Origin: Acidobacteriaceae bacterium
Lineage (GTDB): Bacteria > Acidobacteriota > Terriglobia > Bryobacterales > Bryobacteraceae
NCBI GenBank assembly: GCA_020247055.1
Contig: JADCJL010000212.1
Location: 1-62,639 of the forward strand
Direction: 5' to 3'
DNA: 62,639 nucleotides
Shown here: piece after piece, positions 52,175-58,946 of the stretch
How positions within the stretch are numbered: the stretch's first letter is position 1
How the letters are laid out: each line of letters starts with the position of its first letter
Made by a program: the position numbers and the translations under genes
Notes under the pieces: generated by a model
Database searches by the model: none
Seen by the model: only the letters and a program-made list of their open reading frames with translations
What the model was told of the DNA's origin: nothing

Positions 52175-54181
52175 TTATGGCGCGTTACGGGGGATGGGAA
52201 AGGGCCGGGGGGAAGGTCGGGAGCCTGGTGCGGTTTCGGCGAGGGCGCCGAGGGCGGTAGCGGTGGTGAAGACGCCATCGTGATCGAGGTAGCAGGGCCC
52301 GGAGGCGAGTTTGCTCCAGGGCTCGCGGCAGGCCGGGTCCGGAAGGCGGAGCCAGGCGCCGGGCTCCCAGGAGCCGTCGGGCCGTTGGAGGCGGGCCAGG
52401 GCGTCCTGCTGGGCGGCGAAGGAGAGACCGAGTTCGCGGCGGGTAAGGACGAGCAGCGCCTGTTCGAAGGCGCCGGTGGGGCTCCAGCCGGTGATGGCGT
52501 CGAGGAGGCGCTGGCGGGGGGCGGGGGGCAGGTGGGGGCCGAAGACGCGGGCAACCCACCAGGTGGGGTAGAGGGGAGAGACCCACCAGTAGCCGTTCCA
52601 GAGGCCATCGGGGCGCTGCCGGCCGAGAAGCCAGGCAAGGGTGCGGGCGGGGTCGGGCGGGGAGAGGCACTCGGCGACGACGGGGGTAACGTCGACGGTA
52701 CTTTCGCACCAGGCGCCGCCGGGCGGGGTGCCAGGCGGGTAGGTGGCGACGCCCCCGTCGTCACGATAGCAGGAAGCGAGGAAGCGGCGGACATCGACGG
52801 GGCGGCCGGCCCGGGCGAGGGCGAGGGCGGCGAGGGCGGTGGAGTCGGCGTCTTCGGGGGTGGTGGCGTTGTAGCCCCAGGCACCGTGGGGGCCGCGGAG
52901 GGCCGCGAGATCTTCGCAGCCGAGTCCGGTGTGGAAGGCAACGTAGGCGGTGACCCAGTGGTCGGCGGGGCCGACGGGGAGGGCGAAGCCGGACCAGCCG
53001 CCGGCGGGGTGGCGGCGGGCGGCGAGCCAGGCGAGGCCGGCGCGGGAGACCTCCGGCCGGTTGGGGTTCGCGGCCCGGCGGGAAAGGCGGGGGCGGGCGG
53101 GGGGGAGAGCGGGGGCAGGGGGTTCGAGGTAGATGTTGGCCCGGCGGGTGCCGGAGGGGTCGGTGCGGAGGCCGATGAGGCGATGGATGGTGGGTTGGTG
53201 GCCGGGAGGGGCGAGGGCGGCGAGGGCGTCTTCGTAGGGCCCGGCGGGGATGGCCATGCGGTGGAGGAGCTGGCGGACGCGGGCGGCGGTGGTTTGCTCC
53301 GTGGGGCTTGGCCGGTTGAGTTCGAGTTCGGTTTTGAGGGCGGGGGGGCGGTCGCCCGGGGGGAATTCGAGCGAGACGACGATGGCGCCCGGGGGGGCGG
53401 GAGTTCGGGAGGGAGGGGCGAAGATTTCGAGCAGGAGGCGGGCGTGTTCTTCGGCGTGGGGGTAGCCGCAGGCCAGATACCAGCGGGAGAGCCAGGAGGT
53501 GGTTTCGACGGCGCCGGAGCGGAAGTAGATTTTTACGCCGCCGATGCCAAACGGGCTGAGGGCGATGGCGATGCCGGCGGGCCAGGAGTCGCGGGAGGCG
53601 AGGCGGGAGCAGTGACAGAGCGATTCGAGGGCGGTGGCGCGGCCGAGGGTGGCAAGGAGTTGGCCGGCGCGCCGCCAGCGGGAGGCGGGATCGCCGGCGG
53701 TGAGGTTGCAGTAGATTTTAAGGGCGATTTGGTTGTCGGCGGCGCCGGCGGCGGTCCAGAGGGCGCTGCGCCAGTGGACGGGCCAGGCGTCGGGGAGGAG
53801 GTGCTGGCGGGTGAGCTGTTCGGCTTCGCGGGCGGCGTCTGCGGCGCCGATGAGGCGGGCGGCTTGCCGGAGGCGGGCGAAGGAGTTGGCGAGGCGCTCG
53901 GGGCCGGGGGCGCCGACGGGTCCGCATTCGGTGAGGAAGCGGACGGAGGGGAGGGGTTCTCCGGCGGCGACGGACCACTGGAGGGGGAGTCCGCTGGCGT
54001 TGATGTGGGAGAGGCCGGGGTAGTGGGGCTCGGCGGGGCGGTCGAGGGCATCGCCGGAGAGAAGGGAGAAGACCTGCTGGAGGCGGCGTTGGTTGGCGGG
54101 GGGGAGTCCGGCGGCCGCCGAGAGCAGTTGGAGCTGCTGTTCGGCGGCCTCGCGGAGCAGGGGTAGGGCGGTGGTGGACAT
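52175..54181 (-). CDS. Fusion of ABBA-type prenyltransferase-like and terpene-cyclase-like toroid domains
   Basis: A 668-residue protein from the ATG at 54181, 7 nt after the glycine-rich gene. Residues about 60-360 show the strand pattern of ABBA aromatic prenyltransferases: SGLPLQWS with VRFLTE (E85), IALKIYCNL (K155), GGVKIYFRSG (K217), LKTELELN (K283) and RANIYLEPP (347-355). The alternating lysines are where these enzymes bind diphosphate. Residues about 380-650 form an alpha/alpha toroid as in squalene cyclases and prenyltransferase beta subunits: GLAWLAARRHPAGGW, PEDADSTAL (DADST at 444-448, close to the class II DxDD acid motif), and QW-like QRPDGLWNGYWW and QRPDGSWEPGAW. Both calls are from motif reading; the reaction is unknown. 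Coding strand is very C-rich. Confidence 0.7.
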   Translation of the reverse strand: MSTTALPLLREAAEQQLQLLSAAAGLPPANQRRLQQVFSLLSGDALDRPAEPHYPGLSHINASGLPLQWSVAAGEPLPSVRFLTECGPVGAPGPERLANSFARLRQAARLIGAADAAREAEQLTRQHLLPDAWPVHWRSALWTAAGAADNQIALKIYCNLTAGDPASRWRRAGQLLATLGRATALESLCHCSRLASRDSWPAGIAIALSPFGIGGVKIYFRSGAVETTSWLSRWYLACGYPHAEEHARLLLEIFAPPSRTPAPPGAIVVSLEFPPGDRPPALKTELELNRPSPTEQTTAARVRQLLHRMAIPAGPYEDALAALAPPGHQPTIHRLIGLRTDPSGTRRANIYLEPPAPALPPARPRLSRRAANPNRPEVSRAGLAWLAARRHPAGGWSGFALPVGPADHWVTAYVAFHTGLGCEDLAALRGPHGAWGYNATTPEDADSTALAALALARAGRPVDVRRFLASCYRDDGGVATYPPGTPPGGAWCESTVDVTPVVAECLSPPDPARTLAWLLGRQRPDGLWNGYWWVSPLYPTWWVARVFGPHLPPAPRQRLLDAITGWSPTGAFEQALLVLTRRELGLSFAAQQDALARLQRPDGSWEPGAWLRLPDPACREPWSKLASGPCYLDHDGVFTTATALGALAETAPGSRPSPRPFPIPRNAP

Positions 54182-54188
54182 GCGGGGG

Positions 54189-54839
54189 TTAAGCCGGCTG
54201 CTCGATGATGTTAATGGAGCCGTCTCCGCCGCCGGTACCGTTCTGGCCGGTGGCGCCGTTGGCGCCGGGGTTGCCCTGGCTGCCGGCGTTGCGGCCATTG
54301 CCGCGCTGACCGCGAACGCCGCCCGGGCCGGCGGCGCCGCCGAAGCCGGGTTGGCCGCCTTCGGCGTTGGCGTTGAGGGTACCGGTGGTGATTTTTTCGG
54401 CGACGATTTGGATATTGCCTCCTTTGCCGCCGTTGCCGCCGCGGCCGCCGTCGCCGCCGGTGCCGCCGTTACCGCCGTTACCGCCGTCGCCCTGATCCTC
54501 GCAGCCGGAGCCGCTGCCGCCATCGCCGCCATTGCCGCCCGCGCCACCGGCGCCGCCGGGGCCGCCGTTGCCGCCGTTGCCGCCGCGGGTGTCGATATCG
54601 ACGCCGACGATGAAGTCGGAGACCTGAATCAATACGTCGCTGCCGTTGCTGCCGTTCTGGCCGGCGTTGCCGGGGGAACCGTCGAGTCCGCGTCCTCCGT
54701 TGCCGCCGTTACCGGCGGGGTCGTCGCCGTCCCAATTGCAGACGGCCGCGCGGCCGGGGGTGCCATCAAAACCGGGCTGGCCCGCGGTTCCCGCGCTGCC
54801 GGCCGCTCCATCTGAACCTCTTGCGACAATGTTTGGCAT
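54189..54839 (-). CDS. Glycine-rich collagen/polyglycine-like protein
   Basis: A 216-residue protein, over a third glycine, with no signal peptide. It alternates Gly-X-Y collagen-like blocks (GTAGQPGFDGTPGRA, GGVRGQRGNGRNAG) and GGNGGxGG blocks of the polyglycine-II type with short beta strands (DVLIQVSDFIVGVDID, GNIQIVAEKITTGTL, GSINIIEQPA). Two Cys lie in AVCNWD and SGCEDQ. A strong TTAGGAG site stands 9 nt before the ATG, which favours real expression. Middle gene of the three-gene cassette, 11 nt after the upstream gene. It might be a structural fibre or the substrate of the prenyltransferase-like enzyme. Confidence 0.8.
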   Translation of the reverse strand: MPNIVARGSDGAAGSAGTAGQPGFDGTPGRAAVCNWDGDDPAGNGGNGGRGLDGSPGNAGQNGSNGSDVLIQVSDFIVGVDIDTRGGNGGNGGPGGAGGAGGNGGDGGSGSGCEDQGDGGNGGNGGTGGDGGRGGNGGKGGNIQIVAEKITTGTLNANAEGGQPGFGGAAGPGGVRGQRGNGRNAGSQGNPGANGATGQNGTGGGDGSINIIEQPA

Positions 54840-54850
54840 CTGATTTGCTC

Positions 54851-55549
54851 CTAAGATTCTTTCAAGAAAGTGGTGTTGTTAATGAGGTTTGCAGTAGCAG
54901 TAATGCTAGTCCATTTATTTTTGTAATCTCCATTAATTCTTTGGCAATTAATGGTGGTTGGGCCCTGGCAAACGATACGACCGGAGCCATGGATACGGAT
55001 GTTGCGCGCGTAGAGGGCGTGGGTGCCGGGAGCGATGACGAGGGTGGCGCCGTCCTGGATTTCGATGTCCGCGAGGAAGGCGAGGTTGAGGACGGCGTCG
55101 GTGAGTTGGACGTAGCGGTCGAGGAATGCCTTCTGGGAGGCGGAGGCTTGGGCACCACTCCTGATATAGTTGCGGGCGTCGAGGCGGGCGGCGGAGAGGG
55201 CTTTGCCGCGCACGGCGGGTTCCGGGGAGTCGAGTTCGTCGATGTTGCGGAAGCGGCCGGGCTTGCTGCAACCGCATCCTGGAGTAGCGCCGGGTTGGGC
55301 GGCGGCGAAGGCGGCGACGGAGGGAGAGACGCCGATGAGCTGACGTATCTCATCGATCGACCGCGGTTTCATTTGCCGGAAGGCGGCGCGAAAGCGTTCC
55401 GATTCGAAGGCGAGCAGAACGGTCTCGCCCTTTTCGACTTTGAGACCGGCCCCATCGGCAGCCACGCCACAGTCTTTGGAGACTTGGTCGTATTGCACGG
55501 CGAGGAGCTTTCCCAGTGACGGTCGGTTGACACCAGATTTTAGATCCAT
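54851..55549 (-). CDS. Unknown protein leading the prenyltransferase cassette
   Basis: A 232-residue protein from the ATG at 55549, with AAAGGA nine nt upstream. No signal peptide. The N-terminal half is mixed (VEKGETVLLAFESERFRAAF), the middle has a GCGCSKPGRF segment with a CxC motif, and the C-terminal 90 residues look like right-handed beta-helix rungs (IEIQDGATLVIAPGTHALYA, NIRIHGSGRIVCQG). Further Cys: KDCGV, INCQR. I do not recognise the family. Its position first in the cassette suggests a carrier, chaperone or scaffold for the glycine-rich protein. Confidence 0.7.
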   Translation of the reverse strand: MDLKSGVNRPSLGKLLAVQYDQVSKDCGVAADGAGLKVEKGETVLLAFESERFRAAFRQMKPRSIDEIRQLIGVSPSVAAFAAAQPGATPGCGCSKPGRFRNIDELDSPEPAVRGKALSAARLDARNYIRSGAQASASQKAFLDRYVQLTDAVLNLAFLADIEIQDGATLVIAPGTHALYARNIRIHGSGRIVCQGPTTINCQRINGDYKNKWTSITATANLINNTTFLKES

Positions 55550-55706: not shown

Positions 55707-58700
55707 TTGGCCGCTCGTTCGCCCTCGGGAGCTTTTTGTCTGCTCGCGGGCGCCAGTTTGGCCAGCGCGCAGACAATTACCGGCTCCGTTACAGGTACCG
55801 TCACCGATCCTTCGGGCGCAATTGTCGCCGGCGGGTCTGTCGTGGCCACCAACAGCGACACTGGGGTACGCACTACGCTCACCGCGAATAACGAGGGCAT
55901 TTACACGTTTCCGTTCCTCCGGATTGGGAACTACACCATCTCTTTCGAGGCCAAGGGCTTTAAGAAGTCCGTGATTGGTCCGTTTAAACTCGAAGCTAAC
56001 CAGGTGGCGCGTATTGACGCCAAACTCGAGCTTGGCGACATCAGCCAAACTGTGGAAGTTACCGACGTGGGTCCGCTGCTGCAGACCGAGACGCAGGCGA
56101 CGCGCGACACGCTGAGTTCGACCAAGTTGACCAGCATTCCGCTGAACGGCCGGAACTTCGCTTCGCTAACCCTGCTGATTCCGGGCGCGGTTTCGACCTC
56201 GCCGGGCGCTATGAACACGGCGGCCCGCTTTCAGGGTTCCGGGTCGCGGCCGCAGGTGAACGGCAACCGCGAACAGACCAACAACTTCCTACTGGATGGC
56301 GTGGACATCAACCAATCGGTGGACAACCAGATTGGCTACCAGCCGAGCGTGGATGCGCTCGAAGAGGTGAAGGTAGTCACGGGCAACGCCGGGGCCGAGT
56401 TTGGCAACGTGGGCGGCGCGAGCGTCGTGATGTCGATCAAGTCCGGAACGAACGAGTTCCACGGGAACGCCTTTGAGTTTCTGCGGAACGAGAAGCTGGA
56501 CGCCAACGGGTTTTTCGCCAACCGCAACCGGACGCAGCGGCAGGCGCTGCGCCAGAACATTTTTGGCGGCACGTTTGGCGGCCCGATTTAGCGGAATAAG
56601 ATGTTCTTCTTCGTGGACTACGAACAGACTGAGCGGCGGATTGCGGGTCCGGCGACGGGCGCGACGCTGGCGGCGCGCACCCCGTTTCCGAACAACCAGA
56701 TTCCGGTCTCGCGGTTCAGTAACACGGCGCGGTTCCTGTTTAGCAACCCGTCTCTCTATCCGCTGGCGAACAACACCGGCGTGGGGAGCCTGGAGGTGAG
56801 CAGCAACTACATTGGGGGCACCCGCAACTTCCTGTCGAACAAGCAGGGCGATGCGAAGCTGGACTACCGGATTTCCGAGAAAGACAACCTGATGTGGCGC
56901 TATTCGCGCGCCTTTTACGACACTTTCGGCTCTCAGGCGGCTCTTCCGATCTTCATGACGGGCGGCAACCAGGGTCCGACGTGGTCGACGGTGGGCAACT
57001 GAACGCGCACGTGGAGCGCGCAACTGGTTTCGGATAACCGTTTCTCTTACAGCAGCGTCGGCATTGACGACCGGACGGTGGACTGGTCCGGGCAGTTGGG
57101 CGCCGATGGGAACCAGAAGTTCGGGATTCCCGGCGGTCACCCGATTCCCGGCCTTTCGGCTTTCGGCATTGGTGAACAGCTCAGCGGCGCGGGCGCCGCG
57201 GCGACGATTGCCACGAGCCGCGACAAGAAGTATCAGTTCCAGTCGAACAACACCTACCAGGCCGGCGCGCACGTGCTGAAGTTTGGGGTGAACCTGCCGC
57301 GGAACATGCAGACCCGCTACTACGCCGGCAACAACGGCGCCTACTCCGGGCTCACCATCGGCGACTTCCTGCTGGATACGCTGGCGGGCAAAGGCCGCGG
57401 CGCGGTGGCGCCTCCGTGGAATCACATGGGTTGGCGGAACATCATTTTCGTGCAGGACAGCTGGAAGGTAACGCGCAGCCTGACGTTTAACTTTGGTCTG
57501 AGCTGGGAGTACACCTCGCCGATCTATGAGAAAGAGGACCGGCAGGCGAACATCAACACCTTTACGGGCGAACTGATCTACCCGGGCAAGACGCAGTACG
57601 GTCGGGCGCTCTACAACGCCTACAAGAAGCAGTTCAATCCGAACCTCGGCCTGGCGTACACGATCAATCAGAAGACGGTTGTTCGCGCCGCGTACCGGCT
57701 TTCGAACTTCCTCGAAGGCACGGGGGCCAACCTGCGCCTTCCGCTGAATCCGCCGTTTTTCACCGAGTCCAACGTGACGTATGACGTGAACGCTCCGGGA
57801 CGGATTGCGACCGGCTTCGGCGACCTGATTGCGCGCGGCGACCTGACCGGTCCGCGGTCGAGCCCGACGGCGGCCCCGTTCTATCAGGGCCGGGCGTGGG
57901 ACCTGAACCTGCGGCCGCAGATGACCAACCAGTTCAACTTCGCCATTGAGCGGGAGATCGACAAGGCCACGAGCGTGAACATCGCCTATGTGGGCCAGCA
58001 CGGTACGCACCTGGTGATTCCGCACGAGGCGAATAACCCGCTGCCGGGCACGGGTCCGTTCAGCACGTGGGCGCCGATCAACGATCGCCGTCCGCTGGCG
58101 CGGGTGTTGCCGAACGTGGGCAACATTGCGCTGACCGAGTCGAGCGGCACGAGCTGGTACAACGCGATGCAGCTTTCCGGGCGCCGCCGCATGACGGGCG
58201 GGTTCGAGATGCTGTTCCAGTACACCTACTCGAAGACGAACACGGACGGGCTGGGCTACTACGGCTGCGGCGGCGTGAACGCCGAGGGCGCGTACTGGCA
58301 GGATGCCTACAATCGCCGGGGCAATTATGGTCCGGCCTGCTTTGACGTGCGGCATAACTTCACGACGGCCGGCATCTACAATCTGCCGTTCGGCAAGGGC
58401 CAGACGTTTGGCTCGGGCATGAGCAAGGCGGCGGATCTGTTGCTGGGCGGCTGGAACATCAACTACAACCTGGCGCGGCGCGGCGGTTTCCCCGTGACGG
58501 TGTTTGCCAGCCAGCAGAATACGAACTCCGGGCGGTCGCCCCGCGGCAACGCGCGGGCGAACCGTTACCGGCCGGCCAACTTCTCCGGTACGCGTACCGT
58601 GGACAGCTGGTTTGGCAAGGTGTTCACGGCGAGCGACTTCTGCGCGGCGGGCGTCAATAACGGCACCTGTGCCTACGGCGTACCGGCTCTGGGCGAATTT

Positions 58701-58946
58701 GGTTCGTCCGGCGTGGGTACCGAGCGGGCGCCGGGCTTCTTCAACCTGGATACTTCGATTGGCAAGACGTTCCGCTTCACGGAGCGCCACCGCCTTGAGT
58801 TCCGGACGGAGATGTTCAACGTGCTGAACTTCGTCAACTGGGGTCCTCCCGGACGAGATATCAACTCGCCTTCCACGTTTGGCCAGATCACCGGCCAGAT
58901 CGGATCGCCCCGCAACATTCAGTTTGGTCTGAAGTACTTCTTTTAG
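55707..58946 (+). pseudogene. Oar-like TonB-dependent receptor with two in-frame stop codons
   Basis: One continuous frame of 1080 codons interrupted only by TAG at 56589-56591 (GGTFGGPI, stop, RNKMFFFVDYEQ) and TGA at 57000-57002 (WSTVGN, stop, TRTWSAQ). The parts otherwise make a full Oar protein: signal-like start (LLAGASLASAQ), carboxypeptidase-regulatory domain (VTGTVTDPSGAIVAGGSVV), plug (LNGRNFASLTLL, FLLDGVDINQS), and barrel ending NIQFGLKYFF. Single-base changes could explain both stops (AAG to TAG, TGG to TGA). The TTG start and short n-region are also odd. Followed by a terminator. Confidence 0.85.

Follow-up and report, generated by a model that had tools for sequence, protein, structure and literature searches.

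What a terpene-forming enzyme might act on when its gene directly follows that of a glycine-rich protein is the question raised by a three-gene cassette at nt 52175–55549 of contig JADCJL010000212.1 (Acidobacteriaceae bacterium, assembly GCA_020247055.1), the whole 62,639 nt stretch analysed being referred to here as the window. The last gene of the cassette specifies a 668-aa protein that very probably joins, in one chain, a DMATS-type ABBA prenyltransferase and a class II terpene cyclase, as judged from profile comparisons. Its acceptor is likely to be a ribosomal product, and with moderate confidence we regard the cassette as an operon for post-translational isoprenoid tailoring. This view builds on the observed order of the genes, the domain families and their conserved motifs, the existence of the enzyme in fused and split form, and the co-occurrence of its partners; what we infer is the activity of the enzyme, the length of the chain, the residue that accepts it, the order in which the steps occur and the role of the first gene product.

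The cassette

All three open reading frames (ORFs) lie on the minus strand, as do all cassette features given below, and were found with the positions and spacing that an earlier reading of the DNA letters alone (the sequence-only reading) had assigned to them. The first encodes a 232-aa protein of unassigned family (nt 54851..55549) and is followed, after a gap of 11 nt, by the gene of a 216-aa glycine-rich protein (nt 54189..54839; 36% Gly, with GGX triplets), the proposed acceptor. The gene of the fused enzyme (nt 52175..54181) begins 7 nt further on. A 349-aa ORF reading through the first gene was rejected, as its start was judged to lie too far upstream; the sister genome retains the start at nt 55549.

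The two halves of the enzyme

The C-terminal half (approximately residues 377–668, nt 52178..53053) follows a Pro-rich linker and is assigned from its PDB matches to the monodomain class II terpene cyclases. Searched alone, it matched 6ij1 ('Prenylcyclase') at 4.9e-16 and MstE at about 2e-12, and a profile of seven such sequences reached 2.5e-59 and about 3e-52, respectively. The match to MstE and 6ij1 extends over the whole domain, about 290 aa, and there is no second cyclase domain. The class II general-acid motif, DxD(S/T)T, is present as DADST (Asp444–Thr448, nt 52838..52852), and reads DADST or DADTT in 13 of the 14 cyclases compared (DAEST in locus L096). Two QW-like repeats, QRPDGLW (nt 52598..52618) and QRPDGSW (nt 52367..52387), accompany it, as the sequence-only reading had described. 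Pfam returned only a sub-threshold SQHop_cyclase_C match for the window enzyme.

The N-terminal half (approximately residues 1–355, nt 53117..54181) was compared with the PDB as a six-member profile, built from the window enzyme and its relatives at loci L009, L021, L022, L091 and L092. The best match was 6zrz (3.2e-15, profile positions 19–353 of 360), followed by 7w8u (1e-9), 5inj (PriB, 4e-8), 4yzj (1.4e-6) and 6os3 (CymD, 3.8e-6); DMATS-type enzymes account for eight of the nine PDB rows at E<=10. A four-member version of the profile reached 1.5e-8. Single sequences give far less: the sole family match of this half is TIGR03429 (DMATS), at E 0.0035 and 16.7 bits for the whole protein and 5.4e-4 and 19.3 bits for the half alone, far below the curated cut-off of 163.85 bits. 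Three of the six members match this model at E<=1 (best 2.4e-5), no Pfam family was found for this half in any of the four members scanned, and no cyanobactin (F-family) prenyltransferase model was listed at E<=1 for the family.

Leave-out tests support the family. With the window and L009 sequences removed, a profile of the other four recovered them at 1.2e-18 and 2.1e-17, the best of 208 controls being at 1.1e-5. The remaining members were recovered at 1.1e-39 (L021), 4.9e-41 (L091), 5.4e-17 (L022) and 5.1e-57 (L092), with the best controls at 1e-6 to 3e-4, apart from a Deinococcus neighbour at 8.2e-10. Four members share only 23–25% identity with the window enzyme and align with DMATS enzymes over their full length; S58, N61, G64, P66, Q68, R168-W169, K283 and Y351 are invariant in all six. 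Gln68 (nt 53978..53980) falls where printed DMATS structures have the Glu of PVE, the TPVE of three DMATS enzymes (6zrz/6zs0, 7w8u and PriB, in four printed alignments) aligning with P-x-Q of the family. K155-x-Y157 (nt 53711..53719) and K217-x-Y219 (nt 53525..53533) align with VKVYLN and AKVYLR of DMATS enzymes, positions which we take to form the diphosphate shield, and both are intact in the window enzyme. At the second place K or R is found in five of six members (R-x-Y in L021, L091 and L092) and Tyr likewise in five.

Since the profile matches of the two halves, the leave-out tests and the conserved DADST agree, the two-domain description is right at the level of sequence; a separate profile search of each half, a check proposed by the sequence-only reading, points to DMATS-type enzymes for one and single-domain cyclases for the other.

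Relation to known enzymes

The claim of the sequence-only reading that no described enzyme joins these two folds proved to be wrong, because NctPC is such an enzyme. A 2026 review (PMC13290415), with Hubrich et al. (2024, Chem 10:3224) as its source, describes NctPC as one bifunctional protein in which an ABBA-barrel prenyltransferase domain is joined to a cyclase domain like that of MstE; tryptophan receives a geranylgeranyl chain, and cyclisation follows. By that description, the architecture of the window enzyme is known, and the sequential prenylation and cyclisation proposed for it are alike. The difference lies in the surroundings: NctPC adds a C20 chain to tryptophan, while the window enzyme has a 216-aa glycine-rich and a 232-aa protein as neighbours, without a known leader of ribosomally synthesised and post-translationally modified peptides (RiPPs). 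The same review describes ChrPC, also a prenyltransferase-cyclase protein acting likewise on Trp, but with a trans-IDS-like prenyltransferase domain of the isoprenoid-synthase superfamily instead of an ABBA domain, and the cyanobactin F-family prenyltransferases, which share the ABBA fold and use peptide acceptors, but whose models the window family does not match at the level given above.

With the DMATS-type enzymes (6zrz, 7w8u 6-DMATS, PriB, CymD, TIGR03429) the window family shares full-length profile similarity and, in part of its members, the K/R-x-Y strands; it differs in its low TIGR03429 score, in Gln for the Glu of PVE, and in being fused to or beside a cyclase. The cyclase half resembles the monodomain class II cyclases (6ij1, MstE, 8pak, 8paj) in its whole-domain match, DADST, QW-like repeats and single domain, but is fused to a prenyltransferase. 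What appears to be new here is the setting, that is, the glycine-rich and 232-aa partners; no paper on glycine-rich partners of such enzymes was found in the literature searched, which excludes most subscription journals.

Fused and split relatives

Strong prenyltransferase matches were found in four of 101 genomes (a count that, like those below, includes the window's own genome, G000), each fused to a cyclase (G000, G015) or beside one (G009, G039). Adjacent prenyltransferase and cyclase genes also occur in G538 and G609. As the halves are fused in two genomes and adjacent in four, they can be taken to belong to one pathway.

The nearest named match is the metagenome-assembled genome 'Bryobacteraceae bacterium CoA2 C42' (L009), which has the same gene order, with identities of 93% (232-aa protein), 96% (glycine-rich protein) and 91% (enzyme). 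L009 and G015 are one genome, since their sequences over this stretch are identical. In G009 (L022) the order is kept at 26–46% identity (26% for the 232-aa homologue), with the enzyme split into two genes. The L022 operon runs from the 232-aa homologue through the glycine-rich protein, prenyltransferase, cyclase and an 89-aa protein to a P450 and a methyltransferase. Its first two genes are 27 nt apart, and the later ones overlap by 4–17 nt. The three-gene order thus recurs, as the sequence-only reading had proposed to check, once with the enzyme whole and once as two genes. A tree of the cyclases (14 rows), with 3 of 11 inner branches starred and a long-branch warning, is too weakly resolved to date the fusion.

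A second type of cassette is seen in G538 (L091), G609 (L092) and G039 (L021, cut by the contig end), where prenyltransferase and cyclase follow a protein of another family. Compared with the 252-aa protein of L091, identity is 46% for the 202-aa protein of L092 and 69% for the fragment in L021. The partners in L092 and L091 carry a Cys pair or WCGC loop. The sequence-only reading would have been undermined by homologues that lack the two partner genes and have a known unrelated role; pairs with other partners do exist, as here, but none has a known unrelated role. Further upstream proteins (L091:9514-11240, of 301 and 268 aa; L092:8808-9371) may be substrates in this type; the 301-aa protein of L091 contains a stretch rich in Cys and Trp and matches no NCBIfam family.

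The partner proteins

Strong matches to the 232-aa family occur in three of the 101 genomes (G000, G009, G015) and only beside the prenyltransferase. Those to the glycine-rich family are in the same three; weaker matches were obtained for two genes of G001 and in G032 and G060. The 232-aa protein has no Pfam match and one NCBIfam match at E 0.17, and the leader models of Pfam and NCBIfam gave no match at E<=1 for either partner.

The sole Trp of the glycine-rich protein lies in Cys34-Asn35-Trp36 (nt 54732..54740), the putative prenylation site. In the window, in L009 and in L022 the glycine-rich protein has exactly one Trp, and the three align with one another (C-N-W, or C-H-W in L022); the proteins of the window and L022 are only 46% identical, yet the lone Trp is kept. 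Four glycine-rich paralogues (G001, G032; L050, L052), whose genomes gave no prenyltransferase match, can be aligned over the glycine-rich part and have no Trp at this place; two of the four retain the Cys of the Cys34 place and have Ser at that of Trp36 (C-S-S). The 232-aa protein has a Trp that its L022 homologue lacks. On these grounds Trp36 is the best candidate for the acceptor, a case that, resting on two lineages, we judge to be evenly balanced.

The paralogues at L050 (3682-6194) and L052 (1498-4224) are pairs of adjacent 398–457-aa proteins, each with an N-domain and a collinear glycine-rich part, with no prenyltransferase called nearby; the L050 pair has no NCBIfam match at E 0.1 and a single weak Pfam match (E 0.094). 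Homology between their N-domain and the 232-aa protein was considered and rejected (hhalign probability 2%; in hmmsearch, no signal stronger than that of 225 control proteins), only the architecture being alike. A first 232-aa profile run against 297 genomes of the phylum gave five weak matches besides the window; the three examined, L016, L017 and L019, are by eye a GntR-like regulator and unrelated genes, and L016 was taken as chance despite an awkward 1.9e-6 with the three-member profile.

Between the window and L009, the ratio of nonsynonymous to synonymous divergence (dN/dS) is 0.18 for the glycine-rich protein, 0.33 for the 232-aa protein and 0.40 for the cyclase half. Within the enzyme gene (nt 52175-54181 vs L009:10001-12004) dS is 0.21 for the cyclase half and about six-fold lower, 0.035, for the prenyltransferase half, perhaps through recombination.

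Cyclase relatives in RiPP clusters

The cyclase profile matched in 90 of 200 genomes of the class at E<=1e-10, eight of them with a match better than 1e-25; from frame lengths, most rows weaker than about 1e-20 are read as ordinary squalene-hopene cyclases. In two of these eight genomes, G277 (L094:1677-7711) and G338 (L095:5079-11551), proteins of 705 and 692 aa with a cyclase as their C-terminal half stand among lasso-peptide genes. These include a lasso B2 protein (5.2e-18 in L094, 5.1e-23 in L095), PqqD-type chaperones, lactam-cyclase relatives and HPr-kinase-like proteins, some of them below curated cut-offs. A lasso precursor candidate in L095 (8911-9063, minus strand) has Tyr but no Trp; none was found in L094 with the pattern used. 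The gene content suggests terpenoid-modified lasso peptides. The N-terminal halves of the two proteins are not detectably related to the prenyltransferase of the window.

In G080 and G070, family cyclases occur in NHLP/TOMM clusters (L056:6229-11723, L024:1152-8927, L057:977-7625, L025:7563-15228) together with NHLP leader peptides ending in RCCCCF or RCCCCA (5e-18), a SagD-type cyclodehydratase (5.5e-81), a SagB-type dehydrogenase (2.1e-44) and, by eye, NHLM-like exporters; an isoprenoid-thiazole hybrid peptide is a possible product. An unassigned 382-aa protein of L056 and L057 may be a divergent prenyltransferase. It shows no match to that of the window, and a common family with the L094/L095 N-terminal half is suggestive only (hhalign E 0.003, probability 10%); a joint profile of the two found nothing related in the PDB. 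The cyclases of L023, L093 and L096 have no RiPP gene recognised nearby by eye, and those of L023 and L096 no recognised prenyltransferase either. An ORF overlapping the end of the L093 cyclase gene and running off the contig (L093:4323-4757, plus strand) resembles by eye an isoprenoid-synthase-type prenyltransferase, and has no Pfam or NCBIfam match at E 0.1.

Proposed function and alternatives

The suggestion of the sequence-only reading, prenylation and possibly cyclisation on a ribosomally made polymer, holds up in kind and is the best reading, because NctPC is described as doing this to tryptophan and because relatives of the cyclase are found in lasso and NHLP/TOMM clusters. The N-terminal DMATS-type domain would take a long prenyl chain from its diphosphate and attach it to an aromatic residue, most likely Trp36 of the co-encoded glycine-rich protein; since a cyclase follows, the chain is probably C15 or C20. 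The fused cyclase would protonate the chain with the DADST acid and fold it into a polycyclic terpenoid. The 232-aa protein may serve the glycine-rich protein as a dedicated cap, chaperone or presenting subunit, and in G009 the P450 and methyltransferase would decorate the product further. In its fullest form, which we put forward tentatively and at less than even confidence, a polyglycine-type protein of about 216 residues, and not a short leader-core peptide, is prenylated on its single Trp and the chain cyclised in place by a Gln-bearing fused ABBA-cyclase. This would be a protein modification not described before, and one branch of a wider group of prenyltransferase-cyclase pairs acting on several kinds of ribosomal scaffold unrelated to one another (glycine-rich pairs, the L091/L092 partners, perhaps lasso and NHLP/TOMM peptides).

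A number of observations weigh against protein tailoring at Trp36. The Glu that in DMATS enzymes contacts the indole NH is absent, Gln replacing it in all six members, which may mean that Trp is handled differently or that something other than Trp is the acceptor; the change suggests an altered acceptor chemistry and also counts against simple transfer to free indole. At the K155-x-Y157 place Lys is found in three of six members, with A or T in the other three, and Tyr is replaced by His in one. In single-sequence phmmer searches the window prenyltransferase half matches only L092 (1.4e-16) of four relatives, the others resting on profiles, and its dN/dS against L009 is 0.79, a value from few changes (dS 0.035) that shows no constraint; constraint on this half appears from conservation across the family, not from dN/dS. 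Two of the three cassette genomes (G000, G015) are near relatives, which leaves two independent lineages with the glycine-rich version. The L091, L092 and truncated L021 pairs have the other partner family, with no glycine-rich match in L091 and L092, and that partner has a Trp in L091 and none in L092. In the glycine-rich protein, conservation of Cys34 and Cys113 equals that of Trp36. Inspection by eye of about 5 kb around the cassette in the window, with Pfam for four of the neighbouring genes, revealed no leader, exporter or maturation protease. Lasso B1/B2/C genes and an NHLP leader and exporter were likewise not seen by eye in the window's gene list, whose genes were not scanned individually; models found them in relatives only.

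The enzyme might instead prenylate a free aromatic compound (indole, phenol) and cyclise the chain to a small-molecule meroterpenoid, with the partners as a storage, scaffold or carrier system. The closest solved relatives of both halves (DMATS-type prenyltransferases; MstE and 6ij1) are, we assume, small-molecule enzymes, and the P450 and methyltransferase genes of L022, as well as the cyclases of L023, L093 and L096, would fit such a pathway. We nevertheless consider it rather unlikely, as no gene for a small aromatic precursor was recognised by eye near the cassette, both partner genes accompany the enzyme in three of three genomes and precede it in the operon, and fused proteins with a related cyclase stand in lasso clusters. 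Modification of a ribosomal product elsewhere than at Trp36, be it at one of the Cys residues in the glycine-rich protein, somewhere in the 232-aa protein or on a peptide from another locus, would account for the Glu-to-Gln change, the conserved Cys34 and Cys113, the Cys pair or WCGC loop of the L092 and L091 partners (the former without Trp) and the Trp-less lasso precursor candidate of L095. DMATS-type enzymes act on aromatic rings, though, the Trp of the 232-aa protein is missing from L022, and the Cys34-place Cys is also present in two of four paralogues from genomes without a prenyltransferase; this alternative is unlikely. That the prenyltransferase half is degenerate and the cyclase works alone is very improbable: the dN/dS of 0.79 and the existence of cyclases without a recognised prenyltransferase (L023, L096) are set against a six-member family with full-length DMATS alignment and invariant residues kept at 23–25% identity, and against the intact K-x-Y motifs of the window enzyme.

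If the glycine-rich protein is the acceptor, entire repetitive proteins would serve as the base for terpenoid rings, and this would be a novel form of lipidation with a compact two-domain catalyst. Were the acceptor a small molecule, the enzyme would still be a one-chain route from an aromatic to a polycyclic meroterpenoid. The natural fused and split versions of the same pathway offer a direct test of what fusion gains, and the cyclase relatives suggest that lasso and NHLP/TOMM peptides of Acidobacteriota may carry isoprenoid modifications.

Weak matches and neighbouring genes

Searches of 396 genomes of the phylum gave, besides the window, four matches with a two-member N-half profile (E 0.004–0.01, over 48–85 positions) and six with a four-member one (4e-4 to 0.009), all taken as chance. 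Neither search matched in G009, G015 or G039, so the relevant relatives are missing from that sample. Weak prenyltransferase matches in G007 and G013 belong to one family of 197–199-aa proteins, cover about 45 positions only and were rejected; these proteins reach 1e-6 to 3e-4 in the leave-out tests, which is the noise level. G070 gave a further weak profile match among the 101 genomes. In plasmids, tblastn found one Deinococcus record only: on plasmid NZ_CP097152.1 of Deinococcus sp. QL22 (L055:5968-8133) an annotated cyclase gene runs into a prenyltransferase-like stretch (profile positions 20–91, 5e-4), and the next ORF, a hypothetical protein, matches positions 203–356 at 1.3e-6, giving a cyclase-first, reversed domain order over two ORFs.

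Upstream of the cassette, an outer-membrane-barrel gene (TonB-type by eye; nt 55707-58946, plus strand) is present as three separate ORFs, compared with a single 1189-aa ORF in L009, and represents either a broken gene or sequencing errors.

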